DNA of 64,000 bases from Deltaproteobacteria bacterium. GTDB taxonomy: Bacteria; Myxococcota_A; Polyangia; Polyangiales; JADJMO01. The notes under the pieces were generated by a model. The model saw only the letters and a program-made list of their open reading frames with translations. It did not search any database and had not been told where the DNA came from. Position 1 is the stretch's first letter, and each line of letters opens with the position of its first letter. Both the position numbers and the translations under genes were made by a program. This document shows positions 1,713 to 44,287 of the stretch, piece after piece. The DNA lies in the NCBI GenBank assembly GCA_022843175.1, contig JALHOE010000014.1:1-64000 (forward strand), read 5' to 3'.

Positions 1713-1922
1713 GTGTCAGGCCTGCTCAACTGGATCGCGTATAGCGTAAGCGCGCGCCTCGGGCGCTCGGTGCTCGCGAGCGATCGCACGCCGCGCGGCG
1801 GGCCGGTGCGCGTGGGCACCGAGGCGGACTTCTGCAGGGACGAGGAGCGCTTCCGCGAGGACGAGCGCCGCATCGAAGAGGCGCACAAGCGCGGCGGTGA
1901 TGCTCAGGGCACGGGCACGTAG
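1713..1922 (+). CDS. small hypothetical protein
   Basis: A 69-residue frame starting with GTG. Its codons have the strong third-position G/C bias of neighbouring real genes (runs such as CGC CTC GGG CGC TCG GTG CTC). The N-terminal 25 residues are mildly hydrophobic, and the C-terminal half is rich in Arg, Glu and Asp (DEERFREDERRIEEAHK), probably a charged helix. Its last 19 bases overlap the 3' end of the oppositely oriented gene ending at 1904. I do not recognise a family. It could be spurious. Confidence 0.4.
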   Translation: MSGLLNWIAYSVSARLGRSVLASDRTPRGGPVRVGTEADFCRDEERFREDERRIEEAHKRGGDAQGTGT

Positions 1923-2455
1923 GACAGCGGGCCCTCGCGCTCGAGCAAGAAGTAGCTCGGCGTGCCCACGTTGCCGACGCCGGCGTCGAGGTACGTCCAG
2001 CCGAGCAGCCGCTCGACGCTGCCCGCTTCGAGCGCGACGAGCGGATCGCGGCCGCGGCGGATGGGGTCGAACCGTGGGTTGTCGCCGAGGCCGTAGTCGA
2101 TGACGAGGCCGTGCTGCGCGGCGACGGGCATGCTCGGATACTCGCGGCCCAAGCGCACGCCGTAGAACCCGAAGCACCGCGGCTTCCCCGCGCGATCGAG
2201 CATCGGCACGCGCGCGCCGTCGAGCCCGGTCTGCTGCATGCGCACGTTCCACCCGCGGAGCGCGCCGGTGCGCGGATCGCGGTGGAACGTTTTGCGGAAG
2301 GTGAGCCAGGTGAGCTTGACGAGCGGGGAGGGGAGGCCGAGCGAGACGCCGCGATACTCGGCGTCGTCGAGCGCGGTCGGCTCGATCGGGTGGCCGCGCT
2401 TGAGCATGTCGCGGAGCGACGCGCGGGAGAGCGAGAGGAGCTCTTGCGCGTTCAT
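1904..2455 (-). CDS. conserved-looking hypothetical protein, third gene of the GntR operon
   Basis: A soluble protein of 183 residues (MNAQELLSLSR start). I do not recognise the family. It is rich in aromatic and Gly residues, with stretches such as TWLTFRKTFHRDPRTGALRG, GFYGVRLGREYP and LLGWTYLDAGVGNVGTPSYF that suggest a compact beta-rich fold, possibly a small-ligand-binding barrel. The ATG overlaps the stop of the upstream gene in an ATGA, so the two are probably translationally coupled. It is the distal gene of a three-gene unit led by a GntR regulator, so it is probably controlled by it and functionally tied to the 230-residue protein. Confidence 0.75.
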   Translation of the reverse strand: MNAQELLSLSRASLRDMLKRGHPIEPTALDDAEYRGVSLGLPSPLVKLTWLTFRKTFHRDPRTGALRGWNVRMQQTGLDGARVPMLDRAGKPRCFGFYGVRLGREYPSMPVAAQHGLVIDYGLGDNPRFDPIRRGRDPLVALEAGSVERLLGWTYLDAGVGNVGTPSYFLLEREGPLSYVPVP

Positions 2456-3144
2456 GCCGACACCGGTGCGTAGGCCGAGAGATCGATCTCGCCCCGGAGC
2501 AGCGCGGGCAGGGCCTCGCGCCAGGTCGGCGGCTGGCGCGCGCACCAGCTCAGGTAGGCGCGGAGCGCGATGTCCGGATCGTCGGCCTCGTGCGGCGCGA
2601 AGCGGACGCCGTCGCGCAGCGCGTGCTCGACGGCCGCGAGCAGGTTCTCGTGGTAGCGCTCGAACACCACCAGATCGCGGAGCCACTCGGCGCGCGGATC
2701 CTCGCCGGTGACGACCCGGCGCACGCGCTCGTGCAGCTCCTCGAGCGCGCCCGGATGGATCGCGAGGAGCTCGAGGTCGTAGGCGAACTGATTCGCGTCG
2801 TGGTGGGCGCCGAGCAGGTGCCGGAGGATGCGCTCGCGCGAGCTCGCGAAGCCGGAGAAGTCGAGCGGGGCGATCGCGCGCTCGTGCAGGAGAAACGGAA
2901 ACCGGAGCGGCCGGAACGAGAGCAGGCGCGCGCGGAGGGTTTCGCGCTTGCGGTGCTCGCGACAGGTGCCGATCGTCTCCGGGCGCGTGGCGACGCGGTA
3001 CCACATGCGCACCACGCCGATCGACAGCTGCACCAGGTTCGGCGCGCGCTCGACGACGCGGGCGCGCTCGGCGCGCGCGAGGTTCTCCGCGATGGTTCGC
3101 GGGAAGAGGAGCAGCGCTCCGGTCCACCATGATTCGTCTGTCAC
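2452..3144 (-). CDS. hypothetical protein, second gene of the GntR operon
   Basis: A protein of 230 residues starting with GTG at 3144, which overlaps the TGA of the GntR gene as GTGA. No signal peptide or convincing membrane segment is visible. It contains clustered His, Asp and Glu residues in mostly helical sequence (HLLGAHHDANQFAYDLELLAIHPG, residues about 110-135, and VFERYHENLLAAVEHAL further on), which could be a metal site, but no named family comes to mind. The paired overlaps on both sides mean its level is likely set by the GntR promoter. Function unknown. Confidence 0.75.
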   Translation of the reverse strand: MTDESWWTGALLLFPRTIAENLARAERARVVERAPNLVQLSIGVVRMWYRVATRPETIGTCREHRKRETLRARLLSFRPLRFPFLLHERAIAPLDFSGFASSRERILRHLLGAHHDANQFAYDLELLAIHPGALEELHERVRRVVTGEDPRAEWLRDLVVFERYHENLLAAVEHALRDGVRFAPHEADDPDIALRAYLSWCARQPPTWREALPALLRGEIDLSAYAPVSA

Positions 3145-3890
3145 GCGCGCCTCCGCTTGTTCTTGCTCGTCACCGTGGCGAGGGTTGCTTCGTCGCGGCG
3201 CGCGAGCTCGGCCGCGACGAGGGGGAGGGCATCAACCGAGGGCTGCGCGACGAACGCGGTGAGCGCGCGATAGGCGAGCGCGTTGGCGCGGGGCTCGGCG
3301 TACATCGCGGCGCGCAGCGCGGGCATCGAGCGGAGCACGCTCGCGACCGGGTTGAGGCAGAGCTGGAAGACCGGGCTCCCGGTGGCCTCGAGGATCGTGG
3401 CGAGCACCTCGAGATCGAGCTCCGCGGCCTCGTCGGGGGTGAGGCCCTCTTCGGCGCGCGCGGCGAAGCTCTCGACCGCGGTGTTGATGCGGGCGCGCGC
3501 GGCCTCGCTCACGCCGCGGGCGAGCGCTTCGAGGACCGCCCCCGCGATCGCGCGGCGGACGGCGAGGAGATCGCGCGCGATGGCGTGCTGCTCGCTCGCA
3601 GAGGCCGCGAGCTCGGACAGCCCCGCGATGAGCTCGGGCCCACCCTCCCGACGCCACGCGCGCACCACGTAGCCGCTCCCCTGCCGGACCGAGAGCAGGT
3701 TCGCGGCGACGAGCTGGGAGAGCGCGGCGCGCAGCGTGAGCCGGTTGACGCCGAGCTGCTCGGCGAGCGCGCGCTCGGGCGGCAAGCGCATGCCGGGGGC
3801 GAGCGCGCCCGAGAGCACGCGCCGCCGGATCGCCTCGGCGCACGCCCCGGGTGCGGACTCCTCGGAGGGGCTGATGGGGGTGAACTGCAT
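3141..3890 (-). CDS. GntR-family (FadR-like) transcriptional regulator
   Basis: A 249-residue regulator. The N-terminal winged HTH (about residues 20-75: AIRRRVLSGALAPGMRLPPE, RALAEQLGVNRLTLRAALSQ, QGSGYVV) is the classic GntR signature. The rest is an all-helical FadR-C (FCD-like) ligand-binding domain, with LLAVRRAIAGAVLEA and an acidic region. I chose the ATG at 3890 because an in-frame ATG at 3923 would place the promoter and both operator palindromes inside the gene. No Shine-Dalgarno precedes the ATG and the predicted transcript start is only a few bases upstream, so the message is probably leaderless. Autorepression is likely. The inducing ligand is unknown. Confidence 0.9.
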   Translation of the reverse strand: MQFTPISPSEESAPGACAEAIRRRVLSGALAPGMRLPPERALAEQLGVNRLTLRAALSQLVAANLLSVRQGSGYVVRAWRREGGPELIAGLSELAASASEQHAIARDLLAVRRAIAGAVLEALARGVSEAARARINTAVESFAARAEEGLTPDEAAELDLEVLATILEATGSPVFQLCLNPVASVLRSMPALRAAMYAEPRANALAYRALTAFVAQPSVDALPLVAAELARRDEATLATVTSKNKRRRA

Positions 3891-3922
3891 TGGTTGAACC
3901 AATACTGGAAGTGGTTCAACCA
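3891..3922. promoter_or_regulatory. paired GntR operators (two TGGTNNNACCA palindromes)
   Basis: TGGTTGAACCA at 3891-3901 and TGGTTCAACCA at 3912-3922 are each palindromic and are also reverse complements of each other. Their centres are 21 bases apart, two helical turns. TGGTNNNACCA is the half-site pattern known for FadR-subfamily GntR regulators. One copy sits in the -35/-10 spacer and the other at the transcription start, so bound protein would block RNA polymerase. Confidence 0.75.
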
Positions 3923-3930
3923 AATGTCAA
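3902..3930 (-). promoter_or_regulatory. sigma-70-type promoter of the GntR operon
   Basis: Reading the minus strand, TTGACA (3930-3925) is a perfect -35 element. After 17 bases comes CAGTAT (3907-3902), a 3-of-6 match to the -10 consensus. The predicted start of transcription lies at about 3895, only some five bases before the ATG at 3890. Both GntR-type operators overlap this promoter. Confidence 0.6.
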
Positions 3931-3984
3931 GGGCGTGATTCTACGCGTTTCGCGGGCTCGCGTTTGTGCGATGGTGCACTCCTC

Positions 3985-4467
3985 ATGTGGAGGACGTTCG
4001 CGATCGTGGCCATTGCGGGGTGCACCGCGCAGGTGCGGCTCGACGAGCCGGATCGTCCGGGCACGCCGTGCGCCGCGGTGGAGACGTGCATCAGCTCGGC
4101 GCTCCTCGGGCTGCGCAACGATCTCGCCGCGATGGGCCCCAAGTCCTTCGCCGCGTTTCGGAAGGCGGAGGTCGTGCGGCTCGAGAACACCTTCTCGATG
4201 AGCGCGTTCTCGGGCAAGGTCGAGCTCCAGGGCACCGTCGAGACCTTCGACCCGCCCGACGCGTGGGCCTTCGATGCGCAGGTCGAGGTCGACCCGAGTC
4301 CAAAGAAGCAGCACAAGCCCGACCGCCGCGTCTTCGTGACGGGGAGCGGACGCCTCGTGTCGGTGTGGTTCCACCTCTCCACCCGCGACAAGGCGCTCCG
4401 CGATCGCGTCGACGACGTCGCGATGCGCTGGTTCCGCACGCTGGGCAACGCGCTGACCGAGCGGTAG
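3985..4467 (+). CDS. small lipoprotein of unknown function
   Basis: A protein of 160 residues with a very short lipoprotein signal (MWRTFAIVAIAGC), the lipobox ending in Cys13. The ATG at 3985 is preferred over an upstream in-frame TTG at 3964 because it gives a clean signal peptide. The mature part has two Cys residues (PCAAVETCISS) and a region of beta character (GKVELQGTVETFDPPDAWAF, DRRVFVTGSGRLVSVWFHLS). No family recognised. It is divergent from the GntR operon and convergent with the next lipoprotein. Confidence 0.75.
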   Translation: MWRTFAIVAIAGCTAQVRLDEPDRPGTPCAAVETCISSALLGLRNDLAAMGPKSFAAFRKAEVVRLENTFSMSAFSGKVELQGTVETFDPPDAWAFDAQVEVDPSPKKQHKPDRRVFVTGSGRLVSVWFHLSTRDKALRDRVDDVAMRWFRTLGNALTER

Positions 4468-5081: not shown

Positions 5082-8000
5082 TCAGGAGTGACTGGTGGGC
5101 AGTCGCATCTCCGAGAGCTGGCGGTACATCGAGAGGCGGCGCTCGGCCTGCGCGCGCGACGAGGCGACGAGGCGCTCGAAGCGCTCGGGATCTTGCAGCT
5201 CCACCGAGCGGAAGCGGCCCTCGGCGCGCATGTACTCCTCGATCTGCGCCTTGCTCACCGAGCCCGAGTCGAGGGTGAGCGGCGCTTCGCCGCGGGCGAT
5301 GCGGCGTGGATCGAAGCGGACGAGCGGCCACACGCCGCTGTCGACCGCGCGGCGCTGCTGCTCGATGCCGTGGGAGAGATCGTAGCCGTGCGCGATGCAG
5401 TGGCTGTACGCGATGACCAGTGACGGCCCGTGCCAGCTCTCGGCCTCGCGCATCGCGTCGAGCGTGTGCTTGTCCTTCGCCCCCATCGCCACCCGGGCCA
5501 CGTACACGTGGCCGTAGGTCATCGCGACGAGCGCGAGATCCTTCTTGCCGACCTCCTTGCCGGCCGCCGCGAACTTGGCGGCCGCGCCGGTGGGCGTGGC
5601 CTTCGACTGCTGACCGCCGGTGTTGGAGTAGACCTCGGTGTCGAGCACGAGGACGTTCACGTCGGCGCCGGTGGCGAGCACGTGATCGAGCCCGCCGAAG
5701 CCGATGTCGTAGGCCCACCCGTCGCCGCCGACGATCCACACGATCTTGCGCACCAGGTAGTCGGCGAGCTTGTCGAGCGTGCGCGCCGTCGGGGTGTCCA
5801 TCGACGACAGCTTCTGGCGGAGCGCCACGACGCGGGCGCGCTGCTCGGCGAGCTCGGTCTCGTCCTCTTGCTTTGCGGCGAGCAGCGCGGTGACGAGCTC
5901 GTCGCCGACGGAGGCCTCCTTGAGCAAGCGCTCGGCGTGCGCGCGGTGGTGGTCGAGCGCGAGGCGGATGCCGAGGCCGTACTCGGCGTTGTCCTCGAAG
6001 AGCGAGTTCGACCACGCGACGCCGCGCCCGTTCTCGTCGGTGTGCCACGGGGTCGTCGGGAGGTTGCCGCCGTAGATCGACGAGCAGCCCGTGGCGTTGG
6101 CGATCACGGTGCGATCGCCGAACAGCTGGGTGAGCAGCCGCAGGTACGGCGTCTCGCCGCACCCCGAGCACGCGCCCGAGTACTCGAAGAGCGGCTCGAG
6201 CAGCTGGCTGCCCTTGACATCGAGGTGGACGCGCCGGCGATCGGGGGCGGGGAGCGAGGCGACGAAGTCGAAGCGCGCGCGCTCGAGCGTGCGGCGGTCC
6301 TCCACGTCACCCATGTCGAGGCCCTGGTGGATCGGGTTGGCCTTGTCGTGCGCCGGGCAGAACGCGACGCACAGCGAGCACCCGGTGCAGTCGTCCGGCG
6401 CGACCTGCACGACGTACTGGTCGCCGGCGTGGTCCTTGGCCTTGTAGGGGACGGCGACGAAGCCCTCGGGCGCGTGGTCGAGCTGCTTGCTGTCGAACAC
6501 CGTCGTGCGGATCGCGCCGTGGGGGCAGATCAGCGCGCACTTGTTGCACTGGATGCAGACCTTCGGATCCCACACCGGCAGCTGCTGCGCGATGCTCCGC
6601 TTCTCGTACATGCCGCTGCCGACCGGCCAGGTGCCGTCGACCGGGAACGCGCTCACCGGCAGCAAGTCGCCCTTGCCGGCGAGGAGCACCGCGGTGACGC
6701 GCTCGATGAACGCCGGCGGCTTGCGGCCCGTGTCGGCGAGCACCGGCGGGCGCATCCGGTGGCTCGTCACCGTTCCCGGCAACGGCACGCTCGCCACGCG
6801 CTCGACCGCGCGATCGACGGCGGCGAAGTTCCTCTGCACGACCTCGTCGCCGCGCTTGCCGTACGACTTGGCGATCGACTTCTTGATGTGGGCGAGCGCC
6901 TCTTCGCGCGGCAGCACGCCGGAGAGCACGAAGAAGGCGGCCTGCATCACGGTGCCGATGGTCTTTCCGAGGCCGACCTCCTCGGCGAGCGCTTGCGCGT
7001 CGAGCACGAACACCTTGATGTCCTTGTCGACGATCTGCTCTTGCATCTCGCGGGGGAGGTGGTCCCACACGGCCTCGGGCTTCCACGGCGCGTTGAGGAG
7101 GAGCGTCGCGCCATGGCGGGCGCGCTCGAGGATGTCGATGCGGTCGAGGAACTGCGGCTGGTGGCACGCGATGAAGCTCGCGTCGCTCAACAGATAGGTG
7201 GAGCGGATCGGGCGCGGCGAGAACCGCAGGTGCGAGACCGTCATCGAGCCGGACTTGCGCGAGTCGTAGACGAAGTAGCCCTGGGCGAAGAGGTCGGTGC
7301 CCTCGCCGACGATCTTGATCGTGTTCTTGTTGGAGCCGACCGTGCCGTCGGCGCCGAGCCCGAAGAACATGGCGCGCACCACGTCGTCCGGCTCGAGGTG
7401 GAACCGCGGATCGTAGGCGAGCGAGCGGCGGGTGACGTCGTCCTCGATGCCCACGGTGAAGCCGCTGCGCGGCTGCGACTTGGCGAGCTCGTCGTAGACG
7501 GCGCGCACCATCGCCGGCGTGAACTCCTTCGACGAGAGACCATAGCGGCCGGCGACGATCACCGGCTGCTCGTCGCGCACGCCGAGCCGTCGTCCCTCGG
7601 CGAACGCGGCCACGACGTCGAGCCACAGCGGATCGCCGGGCGCGCCCGGCTCCTTGGTGCGATCGAGCACCGCGACGGCGCGCGCGCTCCTCGGGACGGC
7701 GGCGAGGCACGCGGCGACGTCGAACGGGCGATAGAGCCGCACCTTTACCAGGCCAACGCGCTCGCCGCGGGCCACCAGCCACTCGACGGTCTCCTCGATT
7801 GCGCCGACCGCCGAGCCCATCACCACGAGGACGCGCTCGGCGTCGGGGGCGCCGACGTACTCGAAGAGGTCGTAGCGGCGGCCGGTGAGCTCGCCGAAGC
7901 GCTTCATGGTGTCGCGCACGACGGCGCCGCAGGCGTCGTAGAAGGGGTTGATCGCCTCCCTCGCCTGGAAGAAGGCGTCGGGGTTCTGGGCGGTGCCGCG

Positions 8001-8654
8001 CATCGTCGGCGCGTCCGGGGTCAGCGCGCGCGCGCGGTGCGCGGCCACGGCCTCTCCGTCGAGAAGGGTGCGCAGCACGCTCTCGTCGAGCGTCTCGATC
8101 TTCGCGACCTCGTGCGAGGTGCGGAACCCGTCGAAGAAGTGGAGGAACGGGATGCGGGCGCGGAGGGTCGCCGCGTGGGCGATCGCGGCGAGATCCTGGG
8201 CCTCTTGCACCGACGCCGAGCAGAGCATCGCGAAGCCGGTCATCCGGCACGCCATCACGTCGGAGTGATCGCCGAAGATGGAGAGCGCGTGGGTCGCCAG
8301 CGTGCGCGCCGCGACGTGCATGACGAACGGCGTGAGCTCGCCCGCGATCTTGTACATATCGGGGATCATCAGCAGCAGCCCCTGCGACGCGGTGAACGTC
8401 GTGGAGAGCGCCCCCGCAGACAATGCGCCGTGCAGCGCACCTGCCGCGCCTGCCTCGGACTGCATCTCGACGACCCGAGGTACATCGCCCCACAGGTTCT
8501 TGCGGCCGCGCGACGACCACTCGTCGCACAGCTCGCCCATCGAGGAGCTGGGTGTAATCGGGTAGATGGCGATGACCTCGCTCGCGCGGTGGGCCACGGC
8601 GGCGACCGCTTCGTTGGCGTCCAGGGTCATGTGGGCAGGCGTCTTGTCGGTCAT
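5082..8654 (-). CDS. nifJ: pyruvate:ferredoxin (flavodoxin) oxidoreductase
   Basis: A single-chain homodimer-type PFOR of 1190 residues, the usual family length. It oxidises pyruvate with CoA to acetyl-CoA and CO2 and passes electrons to ferredoxin or flavodoxin; the reaction is reversible. Visible in order: the YPITPSS motif of domain I (about residue 31), the gamma-type domain in the middle, two ferredoxin-type cluster motifs (CIQCNKCALICP near 695 and CTGCSLCVAFCP near 755), the proximal-cluster cysteines CSGCGE (near 830), ATGCSS and SHC, and the ThDP/Mg region GDGWAYDIGFGG (near 978) with DTEVYSNTGGQQS. The ATG at 8654 starts immediately before the conserved domain; an earlier in-frame start at 8750 would overlap the divergent ferredoxin. 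It sits next to a ferredoxin gene and the complex I operon. Confidence 0.97.
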   Translation of the reverse strand: MTDKTPAHMTLDANEAVAAVAHRASEVIAIYPITPSSSMGELCDEWSSRGRKNLWGDVPRVVEMQSEAGAAGALHGALSAGALSTTFTASQGLLLMIPDMYKIAGELTPFVMHVAARTLATHALSIFGDHSDVMACRMTGFAMLCSASVQEAQDLAAIAHAATLRARIPFLHFFDGFRTSHEVAKIETLDESVLRTLLDGEAVAAHRARALTPDAPTMRGTAQNPDAFFQAREAINPFYDACGAVVRDTMKRFGELTGRRYDLFEYVGAPDAERVLVVMGSAVGAIEETVEWLVARGERVGLVKVRLYRPFDVAACLAAVPRSARAVAVLDRTKEPGAPGDPLWLDVVAAFAEGRRLGVRDEQPVIVAGRYGLSSKEFTPAMVRAVYDELAKSQPRSGFTVGIEDDVTRRSLAYDPRFHLEPDDVVRAMFFGLGADGTVGSNKNTIKIVGEGTDLFAQGYFVYDSRKSGSMTVSHLRFSPRPIRSTYLLSDASFIACHQPQFLDRIDILERARHGATLLLNAPWKPEAVWDHLPREMQEQIVDKDIKVFVLDAQALAEEVGLGKTIGTVMQAAFFVLSGVLPREEALAHIKKSIAKSYGKRGDEVVQRNFAAVDRAVERVASVPLPGTVTSHRMRPPVLADTGRKPPAFIERVTAVLLAGKGDLLPVSAFPVDGTWPVGSGMYEKRSIAQQLPVWDPKVCIQCNKCALICPHGAIRTTVFDSKQLDHAPEGFVAVPYKAKDHAGDQYVVQVAPDDCTGCSLCVAFCPAHDKANPIHQGLDMGDVEDRRTLERARFDFVASLPAPDRRRVHLDVKGSQLLEPLFEYSGACSGCGETPYLRLLTQLFGDRTVIANATGCSSIYGGNLPTTPWHTDENGRGVAWSNSLFEDNAEYGLGIRLALDHHRAHAERLLKEASVGDELVTALLAAKQEDETELAEQRARVVALRQKLSSMDTPTARTLDKLADYLVRKIVWIVGGDGWAYDIGFGGLDHVLATGADVNVLVLDTEVYSNTGGQQSKATPTGAAAKFAAAGKEVGKKDLALVAMTYGHVYVARVAMGAKDKHTLDAMREAESWHGPSLVIAYSHCIAHGYDLSHGIEQQRRAVDSGVWPLVRFDPRRIARGEAPLTLDSGSVSKAQIEEYMRAEGRFRSVELQDPERFERLVASSRAQAERRLSMYRQLSEMRLPTSHS

Positions 8655-8691
8655 GGGCAGACTCGCACTCTGCACGTGGCTTGCCGCGGCA

Positions 8692-8734
8692 TGACGGTCG
8701 TCAGCTCGGCCGGCCGGGAACTTGCTAACCGTCA
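8692..8734. promoter_or_regulatory. divergent nifJ/ferredoxin intergenic region with imperfectly centred inverted repeats
   Basis: The 86-base gap between the nifJ and ferredoxin start codons contains TGACGGT (8692-8698) and its inverse ACCGTCA (8728-8734), flanking a central GGCCGGCC. No clear -35/-10 pair could be assigned. It may serve as a shared regulatory site. Confidence 0.3.
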
Positions 8735-8740
8735 GTTGCC

Positions 8741-9046
8741 ATGGCGACACACATCACCGACGCATGCATCAACTGCGGGGCCTGCGAGCCCGAATGCCCG
8801 AACGAAGCGATCACGCAGGGGTCGGACATCTACGTCATCGACGGCGACAACTGCACCGAGTGCGTGGGCTTCCACGAAAAAGAGGCGTGTCAGGCCGTCT
8901 GCCCGGTCGAGTGCTGCATCCCCGACCCGACGCGGGTCGACACCGAGGAGCAGCTGATTGCCCGCGCGATTGCGCTGCACCCCGAGGATGAGGAGCTGAA
9001 GGCACGCGTCGCAAGCGGCGACTTCCCCTCGCGTTTCCGCAACTGA
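8741..9046 (+). CDS. YfhL-type 2[4Fe-4S] ferredoxin
   Basis: A 101-residue ferredoxin. Cluster ligands are C9, C12, C15 and C19, then C38, C41, C50 and C54. The eight-residue insertion between the second and third Cys of the second motif and the C-terminal extension mark the low-potential YfhL/Allochromatium-type (Alvin) ferredoxins. A likely role is electron carrier between PFOR (divergent, 86 bp away), the 2-oxoacid oxidoreductase and complex I. Stop to nuoA start is 54 bases, so it may be cotranscribed with the nuo genes. Confidence 0.93.
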   Translation: MATHITDACINCGACEPECPNEAITQGSDIYVIDGDNCTECVGFHEKEACQAVCPVECCIPDPTRVDTEEQLIARAIALHPEDEELKARVASGDFPSRFRN

Positions 9047-28207: not shown

Positions 28208-29590
28208 CTACCCGTTGTCGTCGCGCGGCTCGACGGCGAGGCCCCAGCGTTCGAGCTTCCGATAGAGCGTTCTGCGATCGAAGCCGAGGATCTTCGCCGC
28301 CGCCTTCTTGTTGCCGCCCGTCGCCTCGAGCACGCGGACGATGTAGCGCCGTTCGACCTCGTCCATCGTGACGAGCTCTTCGGGATCCTCGCTCGCAATG
28401 AGCACGTGCGAGCGTCGGTAGTTGCGGACCGTCTCCGGGAGGTCCTCGACGGCGATGCGATCGTACTGCGTGAGCGCCACCGCCCGCTCGATCGAGTTCT
28501 GTAGCTCGCGCGCGTTGCCCGGCCACGCGTAGGCGACGAGCTTCTCGGCGGCCGGGGGGGTGAAGCCGGCGACCGGCTTGCCCATCCGCTTCGCGAACCC
28601 CTCGAGGAAGTGCTGGGCGAGGAGGAGGACGTCGGCGCCGCGCGCCCGCAGCGGCGGGAGCTCCACGCGGATCACGTTGATTCGGTAGTAGAGATCCTCG
28701 CGAAAGCGCTTCTCCTCGATGGCCAGCTCGAGGTCGCGGTTGGTCGCGGCGATGATCCGCGCGTCGAAGGCGACTTCCGAGTCGCTGCCGACGGGACGCA
28801 CGGTGCGCTCCTGCAGCGCGCGCAACAGCTTGGGCTGGAGGAGCAGGGGGATCTCGCCGACCTCGTCGAGGAACAACGTGCCGCCGTCGGCCTGCTGGAA
28901 GAGGCCGACCCGCGCGGTCTTGGCGTCGGTGAAGGCCCCGCGCGCGTGCCCGAACAGCTCGCTCTCGAGGAGGTTTCCGGGGATCGCGGCGCAGTTGACG
29001 GCGACGAACGGGCCGGCGCGCCGCGGGCCCCGCGCGTGGAGCGCGCGCGCCGCGACCTCCTTGCCGGTGCCGCTCTCGCCGGTGATCAAGACCGCGGCGT
29101 CGGTCTCGGCGACCCGGCCGAGCAGCTCGGTGACCTCGGTCATCGCCGGGCTCGCGCCGATCATCTCCTCGAAGCGGTTGGCGTTCGCCACCCGCTCGCG
29201 CAGCATGCGCACCTCTTGGCGGAGCGCCCTGTGCGCGACGGCGCGCGCGAGGGTGAGGACCAGCGCCGCGGTCTCGAACGGCTTGGTGATGAAGTCGTAG
29301 GCGCCGGCGCGAATGGCAGCAATGGCAGTATCGAGGCTGCCGAACGCGGTGATCACGACCACGGGCAGATCGGGGCGATCGGCGACGACCCGCTCGCACA
29401 GCTCGATGCCTGTCATCCCGCGCATGTTGAGGTCGGCGACCACCACGTCGAACTCGCGGGTGCGCACGCGCGCGAACGCCTCCTCGCCCGACGTCGCCCA
29501 CTCGGCGTCGAAGCCGCGCCGCTGCAGCCCTGCCGCGAGCATTTCGCAGAGACTCTTGTCGTCGTCGACGATGAGGATGCGGCCGCTCAT
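28208..29590 (-). CDS. NtrC-family sigma-54-dependent response regulator
   Basis: A 460-residue regulator: receiver domain (acidic D10/D11, phospho-acceptor D53, K103), AAA+ domain with Walker A GESGTGKE (171-178), Walker B-type FLDEVGEIP and a sigma-54 contact loop reading GAFTDA (the common form is GAFTGA), and a C-terminal Fis-type HTH ([20 protein letters not shown]). Its ATG overlaps the stop of the sensor kinase gene, so the two form a two-component pair. It converges with groEL, 12 bases apart. Targets are not known. Confidence 0.95.
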
Positions 29591-43192: not shown

Positions 43193-44287
43193 TCAGGCGG
43201 CGAACAGCGTCTGCCGCAGCGTTCCGACCATCTTTTCGACGACCTCGCGCGGCGGGAGGCCGAGCGCCGTCCGCACCCCGGGGTGCACCCTGCCGATCTC
43301 GATGACGACGTCGTCGAGCGCGCGCTCCGTCGCGGCGCGAAGCTCGCCGCGTTGCTCCTCGCTCAGGTGTCGATCGAAGAACGCGATGAGGTCCCAGGAG
43401 AGCGCCGCGTGGTCGAGCTCGTCGTCGTAGAGCGACGCGGCGAGGGCGCGCAGCTCGGGATCCGCGGCGTGCGCGCGCTGGTGCTCGAGGTAGGCGACGC
43501 CGAGCGTCTCGTGGACGCACCCCTCGACGGCGTTCTCGAGCGCGAGGTCGAACGTCGTCGGCGCCGCGTCGCGGGCGAGGGTGATCGGACGCGGACGGGC
43601 GCCGTACTTCTTGGCGAGGCGCGCCGTGCTGCGGGCGTGGGCGATCTCGTCGCGGGCGGCGCGGCGCGTGCGGGCGCGGAGGTCTCCGTCGGCGCCGAGC
43701 TCGCACAGCGAGCGCTCGAGGCGGCGGAACGCGTGGACGCTCGCGGCCTCGATGCGGGCCATCTCGGCGAGCGCGGTGCCGACCGGATTCTCGCCCTCGC
43801 ACGGCCCCACGTCGTTGGCGAGGAGATCGCCCGGCTTGCGGCCGACGGCGCACCCCGAGCAGTACACGGTCGTGCCGTCGCCGCTCGCCATGCTGAGGCT
43901 GCAGTACGAGAAGCTCGGCGCCCCGTAGGAGTACTTGATCGGCGCGCAGAGGCGCTTGCACTCCTCGCTCGTCGGCGGCGTGGAGGGCGGGAAGGGCAGG
44001 CCGCAGGGATAGGTGACCTTCTCGTTGCACGAGGTGTTGTCCGCGATCGGCGTGCAGGCGCCGGTGTCGACCGGGGCGGTGTCGATCGGGAGCGCCGTGT
44101 CGGACGGGGCGGTGTCGGAGGGGACGGCGGTGTCCGCGGGGTCGACCTTGGTGTCGGCGGGGTCTTTGCCCGTGTCGGCGGTCCCGCTGTCGTCGAACGC
44201 TTCGGTGGCGACGTTGCCGCCGCACGCGGGGGCGATCGCGGCGAAGAGGGCCGAGGAGAGGAGGAGCTGCAGGCGGGCACGCGTCAT
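43193..44287 (-). CDS. lipoprotein with Asp/Thr-rich linker and ferritin-like domain
   Basis: A 364-residue protein. The lipoprotein signal (MTRARLQLLLSSALFAAIAP, Cys22) is followed by a linker rich in DPADT/PSDT/APSDT repeats, then a Cys-rich segment (about residues 75-165, at least ten Cys including CKRLCAP and CSGCAVG) and a C-terminal helical domain with EMARIEAASVHAFRRLERSL, RDEIAHARSTARLA, ENAVEGCVHETLG and YDDELDHAALSWDL. The spaced Glu/ExxH pattern suggests a ferritin-like di-iron fold. Start ATG 44287 gives the clean signal. Surface or periplasmic role unknown. Confidence 0.82.
   Translation of the reverse strand: MTRARLQLLLSSALFAAIAPACGGNVATEAFDDSGTADTGKDPADTKVDPADTAVPSDTAPSDTALPIDTAPVDTGACTPIADNTSCNEKVTYPCGLPFPPSTPPTSEECKRLCAPIKYSYGAPSFSYCSLSMASGDGTTVYCSGCAVGRKPGDLLANDVGPCEGENPVGTALAEMARIEAASVHAFRRLERSLCELGADGDLRARTRRAARDEIAHARSTARLAKKYGARPRPITLARDAAPTTFDLALENAVEGCVHETLGVAYLEHQRAHAADPELRALAASLYDDELDHAALSWDLIAFFDRHLSEEQRGELRAATERALDDVVIEIGRVHPGVRTALGLPPREVVEKMVGTLRQTLFAA

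Follow-up and report, generated by a model that had tools for sequence, protein, structure and literature searches.

A FadR-subfamily GntR regulator, its paired palindromes and a probable near-leaderless promoter ahead of two protein families without known function

The locus discussed here resembles two kinds of described system, the autoregulated operons headed by FadR-subfamily GntR regulators and the leaderless genes of bacteria, a known class with canonical promoters. In the accessible text of PMC4494728, FadR-subfamily boxes have the form TKGT/ACMA, GT and AC being separated by 3 nt, and G is associated with Arg and Gly at HTH positions 28 and 59. For E. coli PdhR the available part of PMC7660256 gives the box as AATTGGTnnnACCAATT and reports that the protein represses its own operon, pdhR-aceEF-lpd. 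The DNA that we have analysed, a stretch of 64 kb (the window), carries an operon on its minus strand that is similar in two respects: a FadR-subfamily GntR gene comes first in the operon that it is predicted to repress, and the 15-bp box ATTGGTnnnACCAAT is the same in both (PMC7660256, as far as its available text goes). It differs from the PdhR case in that the targets are orphan families and not pyruvate dehydrogenase, and in that the promoter is probably near-leaderless.

The domain matches of the regulator, P0001, place it in the GntR family and its FadR subfamily. There is an N-terminal winged HTH (PF00392, E 1.2e-19, 70.1 bits with a cut-off of 27) and an FCD effector domain (PF07729, E 2.5e-6, 28.3 bits with a cut-off of 24.3). 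The comparison with the acyl-CoA-responsive FadR of E. coli is close in one way, as the FadR chain in the PDB aligns with P0001 across both the HTH and the C-terminal domain (E 5e-11), but the FadR_C match is under the Pfam cut-off (14.2 against 23.6 bits) and the NCBIfam equivalogs LldR, FadR and PdhR all score far under theirs. With 53.8 bits against 189 for NF003444 and 50.1 against 249.2 for TIGR02812 it does not qualify as a FadR orthologue, and with 52.5 against 330 for NF007001 it is not a PdhR orthologue. R40 and G71 correspond to HTH positions 28 and 59, numbered from the Pfam match, and both are invariant in A1, an alignment of 20 regulators made without the L154 GntR. No His is found among the invariant or near-invariant columns of these 20 sequences, which we take as not favouring a metal-binding type of FCD domain.

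Table 1. Features of the GntR-P0002-P0003 operon and its promoter region (window coordinates)
Feature	Coordinates	Strand	Remarks
GntR-family regulator (P0001), FadR subfamily, HTH + FCD/FadR_C-like domain, 249 aa	3141..3890	-	Pfam, PDB
Second gene, P0002, 230 aa, GTG start	2452..3144	-	Orphan family; start overlaps GntR stop
Third gene, P0003, 183 aa, ATG start	1904..2455	-	Orphan family; start overlaps P0002 stop
-35 element TTGACA, 6/6 perfect	3925..3930	-	Starts at -40 from start codon
Putative operator 1, TGGTTGAACCA, within -35/-10 spacer	3912..3922	-	Exact palindrome; spacer position common to many relatives
Candidate -10, CAGTAT, 3/6, 17 nt after TTGACA	3902..3907	-	Weak match
Putative operator 2, ATTGGTTCAACCAAT, full 15-bp PdhR-type box	3889..3903	-	Covers expected transcript start

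The initial annotation of this region had described two self-complementary operators and a perfect TTGACA, and all three are present as described, the palindromes being exact at 3891-3901 and 3912-3922. Read along the minus strand the order is TTGACA, TGGTTGAACCA, CAGTAT, TGGTTCAACCA and the ATG at 3890. TGGTTCAACCA is the exact inner 11-bp palindrome of the PdhR-type 15-mer, and the last two positions of that 15-mer fall on the A and T of the start codon. The operator centres lie 21 bp apart, and both boxes, TGGT-TSA-ACCA, fit the 3-nt rule for FadR-subfamily sites. An alternative candidate for the -10 is AGTATT, with 18-nt spacing. A consensus promoter scan reported no promoter because the -10 is weak. 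An ATG had been placed at 3923, where the minus-strand codon is in fact TTG; the GntR start codon is ATG 3890. This start is supported by a P-I-S/P-P motif encoded just inside it, which also stands just after the start in some relatives. The best AGGAGG match ahead of it is 3/6, so there is no recognisable Shine-Dalgarno sequence.

The three genes overlap by 4 bp at each junction (GntR/P0002 at 3144-3141 and P0002/P0003 at 2455-2452), and by this layout the operon is real, as first proposed. That the other two proteins have no known function also holds, with no Pfam or NCBIfam family matched by either. In a scan of 25 members of the P0002 family and 26 of the P0003 family, no Pfam family matched two or more of them and no match was better than E 0.02, and profile searches of both proteins against the PDB gave chance-level matches only. 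(Alignments A2 and A3 were built without the L178 and L160 rows, and A3 took part of the fetched P0003 loci.) AlphaFold models made from two-row alignments were poor, with a mean pLDDT of 49.4 for P0002 and 56.0 for P0003; a fold search with the poor P0003 model returned nothing at E <= 0.001, and lipocalins, frequent among its weak matches, are not used here. The operon is nameless and so not searchable by name, and our literature search found no paper on it. A P0003 paralogue with one TAG in frame (43443-43973) and a distant P0002 paralogue (28363-28815) lie 15 kb apart on contig C23 of the same genome. A pyruvate:ferredoxin oxidoreductase gene (window 5082-8750) is upstream of the operon on the same strand, about 1.2 kb away. 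We considered this PFOR/NifJ as a pyruvate link to PdhR, and its POR domains are confirmed, yet there is no PFOR among the listed shared neighbours and we treat the proximity as coincidence.

We think it probable that the FadR-subfamily protein represses its own operon through the two boxes at the near-leaderless promoter and is released by a ligand. As we infer it, the GntR protein (3890-3141) would be a repressor, not an activator, of GntR-P0002-P0003. Its dimers would sit on both TGGTTSAACCA boxes, the first within the -35/-10 spacer, the second spanning the transcript start as far as the ATG, and in these positions would exclude RNA polymerase. Transcription would begin on the start codon itself or no more than about five bases ahead of it, and the mRNA would lack a Shine-Dalgarno sequence. 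The repressor would be freed by a small ligand, most likely an acyl-CoA- or carboxylate-like metabolite, letting polymerase transcribe, with P0002 and P0003 following by way of their overlapping starts. FadR-subfamily autoregulation through such boxes has been published, and the switch is thus of a kind already known. We regard it as a well-supported, ordinary autoregulatory type, at a promoter that is unusually clear, conserved and near-leaderless; the two families under its control are uncharacterised.

The conservation of the box was followed by searching P0001 in 96 genomes and P0002 in 282 genomes of the phylum, and the complete operon of one marine MAG (L004) was added from a search of genome contigs. 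GntR adjoins P0002 at 17 loci, the window included, and at 15 of them an exact TGGTNNNACCA lies near the GntR start codon; L004 has it with one mismatch and G163 has a different palindrome. This linkage of box and regulator across genomes argues for the original reading of the palindromes as GntR operators with an autoregulatory role. At six of the 17 loci a second exact copy is found within 110 nt, the distances from one start to the next being 21 (the window), 13, 13, 13, 23 and 37. Tandem boxes thus recur, and the spacing of two helical turns that had been claimed is correct for the window but is not conserved.

The link to P0002 can be seen where the two genes are separated. In three genomes (G025, G006 and G039) P0002 lies apart from GntR and the box precedes P0002. 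At the four GntR genes of the clade that lie apart from P0002 (G025, G006, G002 and G004, the last two having no P0002) there is no box, so autoregulation is not universal in the clade; G011 has GntR and box and no P0002. Where the genome has no close GntR, none of eight P0002 genes has the box (five cases with no match or HTH-only matches, three with weaker paralogues); one of the eight is in G087, which has the nearest P0002 and P0003 of all (79 and 75%). The box is thus present at 19 of 20 P0002 units in genomes with the GntR clade, counting L004 despite its mismatch, against 0 of 8 without, and goes with the presence of that clade, most of the 20 loci having been found by adjacency and being dependent on it. 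The strongest cases for the link are the three P0002-first loci, from two genera of one family. In G163 (L223) the operon is kept, the box upstream of the GntR start is replaced by a repeated TCTGATTATCAGA, and AGGAAG stands before the start, so that operator specificity seems to have changed and the leaderless layout to have been lost with it.

These comparisons also bear on which protein uses the boxes. The genome holds five matches to the regulator, and one of them, on contig C225, has tandem boxes of its own, ACTGGTAGTACCACT and ACTGGTACTACCAGT, with the core TGGTNNNACCA in common with those of the window, so that the latter might be true FadR-type operators bound mainly by this or another FadR-subfamily paralogue, or by several. 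We consider that unlikely, as across genomes the boxes accompany the adjoining GntR or its target P0002, P0002 has no box where the GntR clade is missing, and the C225 boxes diverge from those of the window in flanks and centre. The C225 paralogue (L239, 906-3780) is 33% identical to P0001, its boxes are 16 bp apart, and it appears to lead an operon that also encodes a 166-aa protein and a GMC-type oxidoreductase (the latter named from sequence; Pfam GMC domains are confirmed only in the L210-L212 counterparts). In L211 (4305-7586) the genes after a FadR-type regulator are those of a P0003 relative, a 132-aa protein and a GMC oxidoreductase; in L212 (1613-4571) a FadR-type regulator stands before a 211-aa protein and a GMC oxidoreductase, and ATTGGTTGAACCAAT and GTGGTTTAACCAAT lie upstream. 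These operons are like that of the window in having a FadR-type regulator first, in the tandem TGGTNNNACCA boxes of C225 and L212 and in the P0003 relative of L211, and differ in having a GMC oxidoreductase and no P0002.

Returning to regulation by the adjoining GntR protein, the promoter itself proved to be conserved. We aligned 20 promoters on the start codon (the 17 operons, G011, and P0002 of G025 and G006, with G039 omitted as near-identical to G006), taking as start whichever in-frame ATG or GTG came first beyond the last box, or in G163, which has no such box, the only listed start. A TTGACA-like hexamer gives a sharp peak at -36 (3.3/6, with the next best at 1.9 and a mean of 1.45). 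In a grid of 360 cells, with -10-to-start gaps of 0-29 and spacers of 12-23, the best cell is gap 7 with spacer 17 at 6.0/12 (grid mean 3.03, sd 0.58). Masking the boxes leaves it in first place, at 5.2 against a mean of 2.43 with an sd of 0.64. At this cell 11 of the 20 promoters score at least 7 and none of 39 long window ORFs does; with gap 6-8 and spacer 16-18 the counts are 15 of 20 and 3 of 39. The AGGAGG match is at most 4/6 in 19 of the 20, G163 alone having a match of 5. The conserved TTGACA-17-TATAAT-7-start with a box in the spacer is the layout that would be expected of leaderless transcripts.

As in leaderless bacterial genes, the -10 of the relatives puts the predicted transcript start at the start codon, with no Shine-Dalgarno sequence; in contrast to those genes, the spacer here contains an operator, which is conserved along with the promoter. 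The window departs from the conserved gap of 7, having 11 with spacer 17 or 10 with spacer 18, from which a leader of 4-5 nt is predicted. The proposal of a near-leaderless promoter is supported by this comparison, a -10 about 7 nt before the start codon being seen in most relatives; in the window the leader is probably 4-5 nt instead of zero. G079 and G030 resemble the window in geometry, and in both the second box also abuts the start.

A divergent plus-strand gene begins near 3964-3985, leaving an intergenic stretch of less than 100 bp, and PMC4494728 reports that a lone FadR-subfamily site in a divergon usually controls the operons on both sides. That the boxes serve this gene too, or instead of the GntR operon, seems quite improbable to us, since they lie at the GntR end of the shared stretch, fitting the GntR promoter, and the conserved geometry is tied to GntR or P0002 starts. 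A role for the GntR protein as activator of the window promoter has precedent, in that some FadR-subfamily proteins activate certain promoters and PdhR is reported to activate fatty-acid degradation (PMC7660256, in the part available). We think such a role very unlikely here, since boxes placed within the spacer and across the start would obstruct polymerase. Activator sites usually lie upstream of the -35.

The legibility of regulator, box and promoter gives a handle on two conserved families without known function, since the pathway could be identified by assaying binding and screening ligands, and the set of about twenty related promoters allows leaderless geometry to be examined jointly with the position of the operator. 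More tentatively, and with appreciable doubt, we suggest that -35, box in the spacer, -10, seven bases and start codon may form a clade-wide unit across the phylum, placed before whichever gene heads the P0002 unit, with leaderless initiation selected as part of the switch, and that P0002 and P0003 may make up a FadR-controlled metabolic module not described before, perhaps one that works on lipids.

With regard to the rarity of the box, exact TGGTTSAACCA occurs in the window only at the two operator positions. With up to two mismatches there are 6 matches against 2.8 expected; 6 of 100 shuffles did as well, and meaning attaches to the exact copies alone. The scan for further sites proposed in the initial annotation gave three exact copies in the whole genome (9.75 Mb, 470 contigs) against one for the reversed control, the third copy being inside coding sequence. 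At up to two mismatches there are 42 places against 14 for the control, and the four inspected beyond the window and the C225 pair gave no convincing regulon member. Chance palindromes, which the near-chance count at two mismatches might suggest, are extremely unlikely, with two exact copies inside 32 bp against three in 9.75 Mb and the box conserved across genomes.

In 27 chosen genomes the 15-mer ATTGGTNNNACCAAT occurs 19 times (reversed control 0), 12 times ahead of a GntR-P0002 operon and 3 times ahead of P0002 with no adjoining GntR. Across 377 genomes of the phylum there are 71 occurrences against 13 for the reversed control (summed from the table). Seventy-one places were inspected, 68 from the phylum scan and 3 from the 27-genome scan; only 26 are within 250 bp upstream of a related HTH, which suggests that other FadR-type regulators of the phylum use the same box, and the other 45 include coding and unexplained places. 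One genome, G235 (L276-L280), has eight exact ATTGGTNNNACCAAT copies; of the five listed, four are ATTGGTAGGACCAAT and none is near a related HTH. A regulon link to fatty-acid synthesis was considered and is not relied on, the case being a single site before fabH in G037. That site (L199, 1501-1515) is an exact PdhR-type box about 40 bp upstream of the likely fabH start, and the gene adjoins a fabD-like gene, both named from sequence.
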